From the NCBI GenBank assembly GCA_016931995.1, contig JAFGDS010000105.1:1-41689 (forward strand): a DNA stretch of 41,689 nucleotides, in the 5' to 3' direction. The position numbers and the translations under genes were made by a program. How positions within the stretch are numbered: position 1 is the stretch's first letter; each line of letters begins with the position of its first letter. The notes below the pieces were generated by a model. The model did not search any database. It was given only the letters and a program-made list of their open reading frames with translations, and had not been told where the DNA came from. Positions 12,602 to 15,703 of the stretch are shown here, in pieces. Source of the stretch: Pirellulales bacterium. GTDB lineage: Bacteria > Planctomycetota > Planctomycetia > Pirellulales > Thermoguttaceae.

Positions 12602-14005
12602 ATGTCATCCTCATCTCGACCCCTGCGGATCCTGTTGGTTTCCGATGATCGGAAGACCTTGCGCCGTTTGTCGGCGTTTCTTGAAGTCTTCGGTTTCGAG
12701 ATGCGCCAGGCGACGGGTTGGCCCGAGGCGCTGGGAGCGCTCGAGGCGGGACCCGCCGAGTGCGTGATCCTCGACGCGGGGGGGTCGATTCGTCAAGCCT
12801 TCCCCTGGTGCGGCCAGCTCCGCGACAAGACGGCTCGCGACCACGTCCACGTGCTCATGCTCGTCGACGAACCCGGCCCGCGGGCGCTCACCGAAGCCCT
12901 GGAGGCCGGCGCGGACGATTTTCTGACGCGACCGATCGTTTTTGGCGAGGTTCTCGCCCGGCTTCGTTCGGCCGCGCGCGCCGTTGAGTTCGAGCGCCGC
13001 TTGCGCGAGCAGTCGGACGTCGAGCCCATCACCGGCATGCCCAGCCGCGCCGTGTTGTTGGAACACCTGGCGCGCGCCGTGGGCCGCGCCGGACAGGGTG
13101 GGGCGTCCTCGTGCGTTCTGTTGGATATTGATTTCCTGGACGCCGTCAACCGACGCCATGGCCGGCCGGAGGGCGACCGGCTCATCCGCGCCGTCGGCGA
13201 GAAGCTCGCCGCGATGCCGGCGCCGTGGATCGCCTCGCTGGGGGCCGGCCGGTTCGCCGCGGTCCTGGCCGACGCGTCCGAGGAAGACGCCGCGGCGTGG
13301 GCCGATTCGATCCGTCAGACGATCGCGACGACCGAATTCAACCTTGGCGGCGCGGACCGGCCCGTCCGTTTGAGCGGCGCCGTTGTCCCGGTCCGCGCCG
13401 AACTCTCCGCCCAGCAAAACCTCGACAAGGCAACCGACGCCCTGCGCTGGGCCAAACACTCGGGACGGAACGTCGTCGTTCGATCGGGCCAGTTCGCCGA
13501 GGAGTCGCAGGCGTGGAACGAGCTCGTCTCGCAGGGCCGGCTCTTCGAGGGAACGATCGCCCGCGACGTCATGACCCCCTGCACGCTCGTTCTGGGCGTC
13601 GACGACCCGCTGGATCGCGCCGCCGCCCTGTTCGCCCGCTCCCGGCTCGAGATCCTGCCCGTGGTCGATGGCCAGGGCCGGCTGGCTGGCGTGCTGGAGA
13701 ACGCGGCCATCGTGGGCATGTCGCCGGCCGACGCGGCCTCGCCGGTCGGCGCGCTCATGGAGACCGCGCCGCTTGCGCGCGACGAGGAAACGCCCTTCGA
13801 CGAGCTGATGGAGTTCTTCCGCCAGCAGCCGGCCGCAAGGCTCGTGATCCAACGCGACGGCCGCCCGACTGGCCTCGTGACGGCCAATAGTCTGTTGGCG
13901 CTGAGCGTGCCGCTTGGCTCGGAGAGCTTCGCGCCCGCCGAGCCCTTCTCCACCACAAGCGACTTCCTGCTCGTGCCCGATCTGACCGTGGCCGACGAAG
14001 CGTGA
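12602..14005 (+). CDS. receiver, degenerate GGDEF and CBS-pair signalling protein
   Basis: The 467-residue protein starts with a CheY-like receiver domain (about 8-125): acidic pair SDD at 14-16, phosphoacceptor Asp58 in CVILDAG, and Arg replacing the usual conserved Lys in the LTRPI segment. A GGDEF-fold domain follows at about 135-290, but the active-site loop reads GAGRF instead of GGDEF, so cyclase activity is not expected. Two CBS motifs at about 318-440 (ARDVMTPCTLVLGVDDPLD and VGALMETAPLARDEETPFDE) suggest nucleotide sensing. It is divergent from the FHA/EAL-kinase operon, whose EAL domain is also degenerate, suggesting a shared non-catalytic signalling role. ATG 12602 has only a weak upstream site. 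Confidence 0.83.
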   Translation: MSSSSRPLRILLVSDDRKTLRRLSAFLEVFGFEMRQATGWPEALGALEAGPAECVILDAGGSIRQAFPWCGQLRDKTARDHVHVLMLVDEPGPRALTEALEAGADDFLTRPIVFGEVLARLRSAARAVEFERRLREQSDVEPITGMPSRAVLLEHLARAVGRAGQGGASSCVLLDIDFLDAVNRRHGRPEGDRLIRAVGEKLAAMPAPWIASLGAGRFAAVLADASEEDAAAWADSIRQTIATTEFNLGGADRPVRLSGAVVPVRAELSAQQNLDKATDALRWAKHSGRNVVVRSGQFAEESQAWNELVSQGRLFEGTIARDVMTPCTLVLGVDDPLDRAAALFARSRLEILPVVDGQGRLAGVLENAAIVGMSPADAASPVGALMETAPLARDEETPFDELMEFFRQQPAARLVIQRDGRPTGLVTANSLLALSVPLGSESFAPAEPFSTTSDFLLVPDLTVADEA

Positions 14006-14024
14006 GACCGGCCTCGCGCGTCGT

Positions 14025-14124
14025 GTGCCACTGGCTCCGCCAGTGCGCGGTTGGGCACAGACTTGACGCCAGGACTCTTCAGGAATCCTCGCCCGCCGCA
14101 CACACTGGCGGAGCCCGTGGCGCC
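14025..14124. repeat. REPIN-like pair, CACTGGC-GCCAGTG family
   Basis: A copy at 14025-14046 and a diverged inverted copy at about 14103-14123 (GAGCCCGTGG in place of GAGCCAGTGG) lie 20 bases after the receiver/GGDEF gene. The rest of 14125-14300 shows no gene I can support. Confidence 0.8.
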
Positions 14125-14301
14125 TGACGGCCAACGTCCTTCGCCGCGCGCTCCAGAATGACGTGTCCATGGGGCGCAGGTTTTCGGATCGGCCCCCACC
14201 GCCCCTCCCACATGTTCCCTCCAACGAGGGGCTTGAGCGTGGTGGGGTGGGTTCGGGCCACGAGCCGGATGCCTTTTTCCCGCCGATCGCGTGGTTCCCC
14301 C

Positions 14302-14330
14302 TTGCATCCGGCGGGCATGCGAGCTAAAAG
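14302..14330 (+). promoter_or_regulatory. candidate promoter of the aroF leader
   Basis: TTGCAT at 14302-14307 and TAAAAG at 14325-14330 are 17 bases apart, about 48 bases upstream of the leader-peptide ATG. It is a reasonable but not strong match. Confidence 0.4.
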
Positions 14331-14378
14331 AGAACGTGTGGAGCAAGTCCGCTTTGGCGGACGATAGGCATTTTTGCG

Positions 14379-14459
14379 ATGAAGACTCTGCCGAACACCT
14401 ACTTCCGGTTCTGGTTTAGCCCGCCGCGTCGCGGGGCCGGAGGAGGTGCCTCGGTTTAG
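14379..14459 (+). CDS. aromatic-amino-acid leader peptide upstream of aroF
   Basis: This 26-codon open frame (ATG 14379, TAG 14457-14459) contains TYFRFWF at residues 7-13: Tyr, Phe, Phe, Trp and Phe within seven codons. It ends 30 bases before an intrinsic terminator and 209 bases before a DAHP synthase gene. Peptides like this (PheL, TrpL) act by stalling the ribosome when charged tRNA for the pathway end-product is scarce. Phe, Tyr and Trp all come from the aroF pathway, so the peptide would sense general aromatic supply. A classical ribosome-binding site is not obvious upstream of the ATG, the main weakness of the call. It is too short for most gene finders. Confidence 0.75.
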   Translation: MKTLPNTYFRFWFSPPRRGAGGGASV

Positions 14460-14521
14460 CCTCCTACCAGAAGCGACAAGAAACCAAGCCCCGCGACCCC
14501 CCAAGGTCCGCGGGGTTTTTT
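14428..14521 (+). promoter_or_regulatory. transcription attenuator of aroF
   Basis: GTCGCGGGG at 14428-14436, inside the leader reading frame, is exactly complementary to CCCCGCGAC at 14489-14497, which is also the 5' half of the terminator. The two pairings exclude each other. A ribosome stalled on the Tyr/Phe/Trp codons (14400-14417) would leave most of 14428-14436 free to form the antiterminator; a ribosome reaching the stop at 14459 would cover it and let the terminator form. A further AGGAGG...CCTCCT pairing (about 14440-14465) may add a pause hairpin. This is inferred from sequence only. Confidence 0.75.
14489..14521 (+). terminator. intrinsic terminator in the aroF leader
   Basis: CCCCGCGACC at 14489-14498 pairs with GGTCCGCGGGG at 14505-14515, with one bulged base, and is followed by six T at 14516-14521. 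It lies after the leader peptide and before aroF. Confidence 0.88.
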
Positions 14522-14568
14522 GTTAACCGTGCGAGTCGTCGGATGCCTTTTTGCGTGTCCCATTGGGC

Positions 14569-14626
14569 GCCACTGCTGGCTTATCCAGAAGTGCTGAAAA
14601 GCGCTGTCGGATAAGCCAGCAGTGGC
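14569..14626. repeat. perfect 18-base inverted repeat in the aroF 5' leader
   Basis: Arms 14569-14586 and 14609-14626 (core CACTGCTGGCTTATCC) are exact inverted copies around 22 bases. They lie between the attenuator terminator and the aroF start, so the mRNA would carry this hairpin 42 bases ahead of aroF. Confidence 0.88.
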
Positions 14627-14668
14627 ATTGCCCGGTTTGAGTCGAACGAAAACGAGGAAGCCATTGCC

Positions 14669-15703
14669 ATGATCGTCGTGATGAAGCGGGGCGCCACCCC
14701 GGAGCAGATTGAACACATGATCCAACGCGTCGAAGAACTGGGCTTGAAGGCCCATCCGATCCATGGAACCGAGCGGACGGTGATCGCCGCCATTGGCGAA
14801 AAGCGGGACGAGCACCGCACGTCGTTGGAGAGCTGCCCCGGCGTGGCCGAAGTGGTGCCCATCCTGGCGCCCTACAAAGTGGCCAGCCGCGAGGTCAAGC
14901 CCGAGTCCACCGTGGTCCGCGCCGGCAGCCTTGCGGTGGGCAACAGCCACATCGGCATGATCGCCGGGCCGTGTTCCGTGGAAGACGTGGACCAGATGAT
15001 CGCCACCGCCCGGGCGGTGTCTCGCGCGGGCGCCACGGCCCTGCGCGGCGGCGCCTTCAAGCCACGCACGAGCCCCTACAGCTTCCAGGGGCTCAAGGAA
15101 GACGGCTTGAAAATCCTCGCCGTCGCCCGGGACGAAACCGGCCTGGCCGTGGTTACCGAGGTGATTGCCGCCGACGACGTCGAGCTGGTCGCCCGATACG
15201 CCGACGTGCTGCAAATCGGCGCCCGCAACATGCAAAACTACCGGCTGCTCGAGGCGGCCGGCGCCACGGGCAAGGCCATCCTGCTGAAGCGCGGCCCCAG
15301 CGCCACCATGGACGAATTGCTCCTGGCCGCCGAATACATCCTCAACGCGGGCAATCCCAGCGTCATGCTCTGCGAGCGCGGCATCCGCACGTTCGAGAAC
15401 CACACGCGCTACACGCTGCCGCTGGCCTCCGTGCCCTACCTGCACGAGCGGACGCACCTGCCCGTCGTGGTCGACCCCAGCCACGGCACGGGCCACGCCA
15501 GCCTGGTCACGCCGATGGCCTGCGCGGCCATCGCGGCCGGCGCGGATGGGCTCATCATCGAGGTCCACCCCAACCCGGAAAAGGCCTTAAGCGACGGCTA
15601 CCAGTCGCTCAACTTCGAGCAGTTTGGCCAGGCCATGGCCCTCTGCCGCAAAATGGCCGACGTCGTGGGCCGGCAAATCGCATTGAACCAACGCACGCCG
15701 TGA
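14669..15703 (+). CDS. aroF: 3-deoxy-7-phosphoheptulonate (DAHP) synthase, type I-beta
   Basis: The 344-residue enzyme condenses phosphoenolpyruvate with erythrose 4-phosphate, the first step of the shikimate pathway. Residues 1-70 form a ferredoxin/ACT-like regulatory domain ([14 protein letters not shown]...), as in the Thermotoga-type enzyme, which is feedback-inhibited by Tyr or Phe. The TIM-barrel catalytic part shows [50 protein letters not shown] and [11 protein letters not shown]. Metal and substrate residues within these motifs look intact. An aromatic leader peptide and attenuator lie upstream, so the gene appears to be controlled both at transcription and by feedback on the protein. 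AGGAAG precedes the ATG at suitable spacing. Confidence 0.96.

Follow-up and report, generated by a model that had tools for sequence, protein, structure and literature searches.

A putative leader-peptide attenuator with Phe, Tyr and Trp codons ahead of the DAHP synthase gene aroF in planctomycetes

Introduction

Why should a short reading frame crowded with aromatic codons stand directly in front of an intrinsic terminator and of aroF, which encodes 3-deoxy-7-phosphoheptulonate (DAHP) synthase? Leader-peptide attenuation is a textbook mechanism, mainly studied in Proteobacteria and Actinobacteria, and the locus considered here belongs to a planctomycete. A first-pass annotation of the window, by which we mean the whole 41.7-kb stretch of DNA analysed, had described a 26-codon frame containing TYFRFWF, an intrinsic terminator and aroF in this order, and had read them as an attenuator in which stalling on aromatic codons would favour antitermination. 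Here, we examine this reading in the window, in related genomes and in front of other genes.

Results

Architecture of the aroF leader

The frame, the terminator (14486-14521) and aroF lie where they had been described (Table 1), and five of seven consecutive codons are indeed aromatic (codons 7-13, T-Y-F-R-F-W-F). The assignment of aroF is secure, its product scoring 487.6 bits against NCBIfam NF006421 (cut-off 335, 2e-146) and above the cut-off of TIGR01361 (2.3e-113). The predicted terminator combines a hairpin of about -21 kcal/mol (-21.4 when folded alone) with six T at 14516-14521; a simple terminator scan did not list this hairpin on the + strand, probably because of a bulge in its 3' arm. 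A strand within the frame had also been proposed to complement the 5' half of the terminator, and this holds to the letter: all 10 nt of GTCGCGGGGC (14428-14437) match the reverse complement of GCCCCGCGAC (14488-14497), the duplex amounts to -24.1 kcal/mol, and each of the two sequences occurs a single time on the + strand of the window. The stretch 14427-14498 folds into a single long hairpin of -34.4 kcal/mol, to be compared with the -21.4 kcal/mol of the terminator hairpin alone. As judged from sequence, antiterminator and terminator are mutually exclusive, both needing segment 3. No clear Shine-Dalgarno sequence was seen by eye in the window, a point that we counted against the attenuator reading.

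Table 1. Elements of the aroF leader region, in window coordinates
Feature	Coordinates	Strand	Remarks
Promoter-like pair TTGCAT (14302-14307), 17 nt, TAAAAG (14325-14330)	14302-14330	+	Motif only
Leader reading frame, 26 codons and stop	14379-14459	+	ATG at 14379, TAG ends 14459; peptide MKTLPNTYFRFWFSPPRRGAGGGASV, then stop
Regulatory codons TAC TTC CGG TTC TGG TTT (Tyr Phe Arg Phe Trp Phe)	14400-14417	+	
Segment 1, CCCGC, candidate protector strand	14420-14424	+	Could pair with GCGGG 14431-14435; weakly supported
Segment 2, antiterminator 5' strand CGTCGCGGGGCC	14427-14438	+	Within the frame; begins 9 nt downstream of the last aromatic codon
Inner antiterminator helix, GGAGGAGG (14439-14446) with CCTCCTACC (14460-14468)	14439-14468	+	Single-sequence fold
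Segment 3, terminator 5' arm AAGCCCCGCGACC	14486-14498	+	Partner is segment 2 or segment 4
Segment 4, terminator 3' arm and T run GGTCCGCGGGGTTTTTT	14505-14521	+	
aroF, DAHP synthase	14669-15703	+	NCBIfam NF006421, TIGR01361

Between the terminator and aroF lies an inverted repeat with identical 18-base arms (14569-14626), in a region (14561-14635) that folds to about -55 kcal/mol. Its arm has 91 matches in the genome at up to one mismatch, often arranged as inverted pairs, and the reversed control has none; the repeat is thus a member of a repeat family that is situated in the aroF leader.

From the promoter-like pair upstream of the frame, a transcript would be predicted to start near 14337. 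A TTGC or TTGA hexamer followed after 16-18 nt by an AT-rich hexamer that ends 33-60 nt before the leader ATG is found in 15 of 18 members examined in the window's family, as motif matches without a chance control. The first-pass annotation had named a transcription start downstream of 14459 as evidence against its reading; the promoter-like motif points to a likely start upstream of the frame, and a consensus scan of 13800-15000 listed no sigma-70 site. The sister families differ in spacing: in 12 of 17 of their leaders (L022, L024, L025, L027, L029, L033, L034, L035, L037, L039, L040 and L042), TTG and AT-rich hexamers, likewise matched by motif with no control for chance, stop 6-7 nt short of the ATG. 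A transcript would then start about at the ATG, which suggests that these 12 leader transcripts are leaderless.

Conservation within the order

The AroF search covered 60 genomes, the window's own among them, all belonging to the same family and order and each to another genus; 59 gave a match. Upstream DNA was read at 41 AroF loci from 41 genera, the window included, with AroF proteins 63-100% identical to that of the window; L019, which has 2 nt of upstream sequence, and the partial orthologues G001:C380 and G011:C83 were left out. Leaders were chosen from rule-based lists and by eye, L005 being found through its segment 2 beyond the first 500-nt cut. An aromatic-rich short frame followed by a predicted terminator precedes aroF at 35 of these 41 orthologous loci, and the element is absent from the other six (L003, L013, L021, L023, L036 and L041). 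Typical leader peptides among the relatives are TYFWFYFCPPGRGAGGGTPG and TYWFWFYFTPTGRGAGGGI. Aromatic residues account for 238 of the 876 residues of the 35 leaders, against 4.2% in the AroF proteins of 22 of these loci; Phe, Tyr and Trp are all represented in 28 leaders, and exactly 11 codons separate the last aromatic codon from the stop in 25.

Codon choice in the leaders departs from that of the gene. Phe is mostly encoded by TTT in the leaders (88/116) and by TTC in the aroF genes of 22 loci (110/127), and Gly codon use is likewise shifted (L026, L027 and L040 were left out of the codon table, and gene usage comes from 22 of the 35 loci).

Evidence for two exclusive pairings

Covariation was assessed on the 35 aligned leaders, each from another genus, against 500 shuffles in which relatedness is uncontrolled. 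For the antiterminator helix (2:3), 83.2% of the cells are paired, compared with 27-50% when the strands are slid, and 22 cells are changed on both sides, against 8.3 in the shuffles, none of which reached as high; double changes affect 6 of the pairs, which is not above the shuffles (168/500). The terminator helix (3:4) is paired in 89.8% of the cells, with 35 double-changed cells against 9.1 shuffled (0/500). Conserved aromatic codons and two exclusive, covarying pairings, which the first-pass annotation had proposed to look for in related genomes, are therefore found across the 35 leaders.

Two further comparisons concern helix 2:3. A segment 2 paired with its own segment 3 gives a mean of -20.6 kcal/mol, against -18.4 kcal/mol with swapped partners, a difference reached in 0 of 20000 permutations, although relatedness is left in place by this control too; pairing is poor in L014, L034 and L040. 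When the leaders were recoded synonymously with the codon use of three genes of the window, 20 of the 35 had a stronger 2:3 helix with their real codons (p<0.05), a number that rises to 26 of 35 with a flat codon choice. Because synonymous recoding weakens 2:3, the RNA, and not the peptide alone, appears to be under selection.

Geometry and modelled switching

The distance of 9 nt between the last aromatic codon and the start of segment 2 in the window is the same in most relatives, owing to the constant 11-codon tail. Compared with most relatives, the window has its segment 2 two codons more distant from the stop, so that it would stay uncovered by a ribosome pausing at that codon, a point counted against the attenuator reading. 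A ribosome was assumed to cover 12 nt at its front, starting with the first base of the A-site codon, and we modelled the 35 leaders with this value, counting 2:3 as formed when at least 6 of its pairs are made before segment 4. When the last aromatic codon occupies the A site, 2:3 is predicted to form in 29 of 35 leaders, and in 31-34 when the A site lies one to six codons before it. Past this codon the number falls to 21 one codon later, 1 at two codons and 0 at three. In the model, the switching point is thus the last aromatic codon. Together with the covariation of both helices, this supports the earlier proposal that stalling on aromatic codons would favour antitermination.

Without a ribosome, 2:3 is predicted in 23 of the 35 leaders, that of the window included, for which readthrough would be the default state, whereas a protector would be expected to lead to termination; the other 12 fail to reach 6 pairs. 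By eye, most leaders fold from segment 2 to segment 3 as a single long hairpin, in which an inner helix involving GGAGG is frequent.

A switch operating at full equilibrium was considered and rejected. In equilibrium folds that include segment 4, a ribosome placed at the first aromatic codon leaves the terminator as the preferred structure in 33 of 35 leaders, and all 35 prefer it at each of six later positions, with a mean terminator probability of 0.89-0.97 depending on where the ribosome is. No switch is visible in these folds, since the terminator wins nearly always, and only the stage before segment 4 switches. The switch would hence have to be co-transcriptional, with segment 2 catching segment 3 during transcription.

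Breadth across the phylum and beyond

To the 41 first loci we added 85 further AroF loci, hand-picked among the best matches listed, mostly one per genus although some genera recur; leaving out the contig-end loci L117 and L119 gave 124 regions. L113, a duplicate of L042, was also left out. A fixed rule was applied: a frame of 10-45 aa had to hold at least five F/W/Y within 8 codons and to be followed by an intrinsic terminator. Such an element was found in 73 of the 124 AroF upstream regions, a count that includes the 41 first loci and is not a random-sample rate, against 1/124 on the reverse strand and a mean of 0.5/124 over 10 dinucleotide shuffles. With four aromatics the figures are 76/124, 3 on the reverse strand, 1.9 in the shuffles and 1/8 before a second AroF type. 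The latter, about 50% identical, gave 0/8 under the five-aromatic rule, the eight being drawn from about 27 such copies. By these counts, the pairing of frame and terminator before aroF is more than chance.

Among the more distant loci, 39 leaders, some of them closely related, were compared for their own and swapped partners: the own 2:3 duplex averages -12.9 kcal/mol, against -10.7 when swapped (0/20000 permutations). The peptides differ, yet as a set the coding strand best complements its own terminator. In 10 of these 39 leaders, the own partner brings no gain over the swapped mean; these are a close group of eight with TTG or GTG starts (L097, L099-L101 and L103-L106), L135 and L152.

An RNA model of the element has matches in 158 of 392 genomes of the phylum at E ≤ 0.01, a figure not usable as a prevalence because many weak matches are bare terminators; AroF itself has matches in 285 of the 392 at E ≤ 1e-60. 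Among 80 named loci, the five-aromatic element was found in 14 of the 32 grouped as planctomycete by title (one of these is titled only 'bacterium' and one is Kuenenia), in 4 of the 48 others and in neither group on the reverse strand, a result that is not independent of that on the 124 regions because genomes are repeated (L175 = L016, L177 = L089, L187 = L041 and L199 = L118). The culturable planctomycete Roseimaritima sediminicola (L186) is one carrier of the element. The aromatic leaders with terminators before aroF outside the planctomycetes are L225, L232, L236 and L253 (Thermodesulfovibrionales, two Calditrichota and Anaerolineae); similar leaders thus exist, or arose, elsewhere.

Leaders in front of other genes

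In another genome of the phylum, the RNA model retrieved a leader (L080) whose aromatic residues are all Phe and which precedes a prephenate dehydratase gene (224 bits with NF008865, whose cut-off is 219; the score with the model of the bifunctional chorismate mutase stays below the cut-off). L078 and L079, also from other genomes of the phylum, are Phe/Tyr-rich leaders with one Trp each, followed by terminators, in front of aroFGH-type DAHP synthases (TIGR00034). The window's own genome contains a Leu-rich leader, MRHLLLLALLLALAGRRP followed by a stop, with a terminator before leuA (L053; G000:C121, complement of about 1493-1620), in which GGCCTTAGGGG, spanning the leader stop, pairs with the 5' arm of the leuA terminator at -18.5 kcal/mol; a Leu-rich leader precedes leuA in another genome as well (L075). 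The leader codons of L080, L078, L079 and L053 therefore match the product of the gene, as expected from attenuation. A scan of the window's own genome detected no leader with a terminator near the prephenate dehydratase gene (L255) or the chorismate-binding genes (L256, L257), which suggests that aroF may be the main attenuated step of the pathway in this genome. A second HMGL-like gene (L259) had no convincing leader.

Discussion

The data argue strongly that the region upstream of aroF is a ribosome-mediated transcription attenuator whose signal is charged tRNA-Phe, tRNA-Tyr and tRNA-Trp, and we consider this reading very probable. RNA polymerase would transcribe the leader with a ribosome close behind. 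Should charged tRNA for Phe, Tyr or Trp run short, the ribosome would stall with an aromatic codon in its A site and its front edge just short of segment 2, which could then pair with segment 3 as soon as the latter is made; no terminator would form and aroF would be transcribed. With the three amino acids plentiful, the ribosome would cover segment 2, leaving segments 3 and 4 to form the terminator, and the transcript would end near 14521. We infer that the frame is translated, that tRNA charging is the signal, that timing is co-transcriptional and that all three amino acids count; for the last point, it is the codons of the leader that suggest sensing of all three.

How the attenuator is built is where another explanation carries some weight. 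In a classical four-segment arrangement, the CCCGC and GCGGG strands would form a 1:2 protector hairpin after the ribosome leaves, and untranslated RNA would terminate. Such a hairpin is seen in several folds, with 71.9% of its cells paired, and the 12 leaders that fall short of 6 pairs of 2:3 without a ribosome would accommodate it. However, it lacks covariation, as 278 of 500 shuffles pair equally well; its strength exceeds that of synonymous codons in 0 of 35 leaders (2 of 35 with a flat codon choice), and its own-versus-swapped difference was reached in 1431 of 20000 permutations, L026 and L027 being left out. Since most leaders, including that of the window, are also predicted to form 2:3 with no ribosome present, we regard a classical protector as unlikely. 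Much further from the evidence is the idea that a small, conserved peptide made from the frame is itself functional, or that it arrests the ribosome as a nascent chain with the end GRGAGGG, the terminator being incidental. The C-terminal G-R-G-A-G-G-G is indeed kept within one order, but the codons conserved there are the antiterminator strand and are biased beyond the needs of the peptide in the 20 leaders noted above, and the distant leaders, with quite different C-termini, still as a set best complement their own terminators; we think this very unlikely.

A leader with a terminator ahead of an amino acid gene would also be expected of a T-box, a known riboswitch or a protein-bound antiterminator. 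Clustered cognate codons in a coding frame are needless for such systems, and the 9 Rfam matches obtained for 13800-15000 at E values of up to 10 include neither a T-box nor a riboswitch; no family reaches its gathering score there, and Trp_leader (RF00513) scores 14.7 bits (gathering cut-off 41, E 9.2). We take all three to be more improbable still than a functional peptide. Least credible of all, and close to negligible, is an ordinary terminator of the upstream gene (12602-14005) next to a chance frame: that gene shares the strand, but the terminator lies about 480 nt beyond its stop, and the pair of frame and terminator accompanies aroF at 35 of 41 loci.

If the ribosome-mediated attenuator of aroF is accepted, it is tempting to go further and to propose an old and widespread planctomycete device that integrates all three aromatic amino acids where their pathway begins. 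Its plan would be a reduced one, with an antiterminator strand placed in frame about 9 nt (one ribosome front) past the last aromatic codon, no protector, and readthrough by default unless the ribosome overruns that strand. We advance this fuller proposal tentatively, as one that is slightly less likely than not. Whatever its exact plan, attenuation appears here as a frequent means of controlling DAHP synthase across many genomes of a single phylum, in which codons and terminator turn over together. The aroF leader also offers a directly testable switch, a check on the coupling of translation and transcription in planctomycetes and a case where a single peptide could read three amino acids.

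The nearest textbook relatives are trpL and pheL of E. coli, which use a protector helix and respond to one amino acid each. Like them, the aroF leader combines a short frame rich in cognate codons with exclusive antiterminator and terminator hairpins; unlike them, its candidate protector is without covariation, its antiterminator strand lies in the frame and three amino acids are represented. Regarding novelty, the first-pass annotation knew of no such attenuator for a planctomycete aroF, and we likewise found none in the open-access literature, but the precedents that it gave, from Proteobacteria, have to be widened: two reports describe aroR, an aromatic leader peptide before aroF of Corynebacterium glutamicum, where stalling raises transcription under Phe limitation (PMC11802643, PMC4046766). 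Compared by function alone, both systems have an aromatic-codon leader peptide upstream of a gene for DAHP synthase. They differ in phylum and in the residues reported, Phe-Tyr-Phe for aroR, with Trp unmentioned and Tyr availability described as without effect on transcription (PMC11802643). The Tyr result is a caution for the aroF leader, where the codons only suggest that all three amino acids are sensed. A 2010 survey states that, to its authors' knowledge and the atypical ermC leader aside, no such attenuation had been shown outside Proteobacteria and Actinobacteria before their own Firmicutes cases (PMC2965389). The presence of several amino acids in one leader has a parallel in C. glutamicum ilvL-ilvBNC, whose leader (MTIIRLVVVTARRLP) is described with a transcript starting one nucleotide from the leader ATG (PMC11857589). 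Likened by description, ilvL serves branched-chain amino acids, unlike the aroF leader, and shares with the planctomycete leaders the presence of several amino acids in one peptide and, as the motifs in 12 of 17 sister-family leaders suggest, a transcript start near the ATG.
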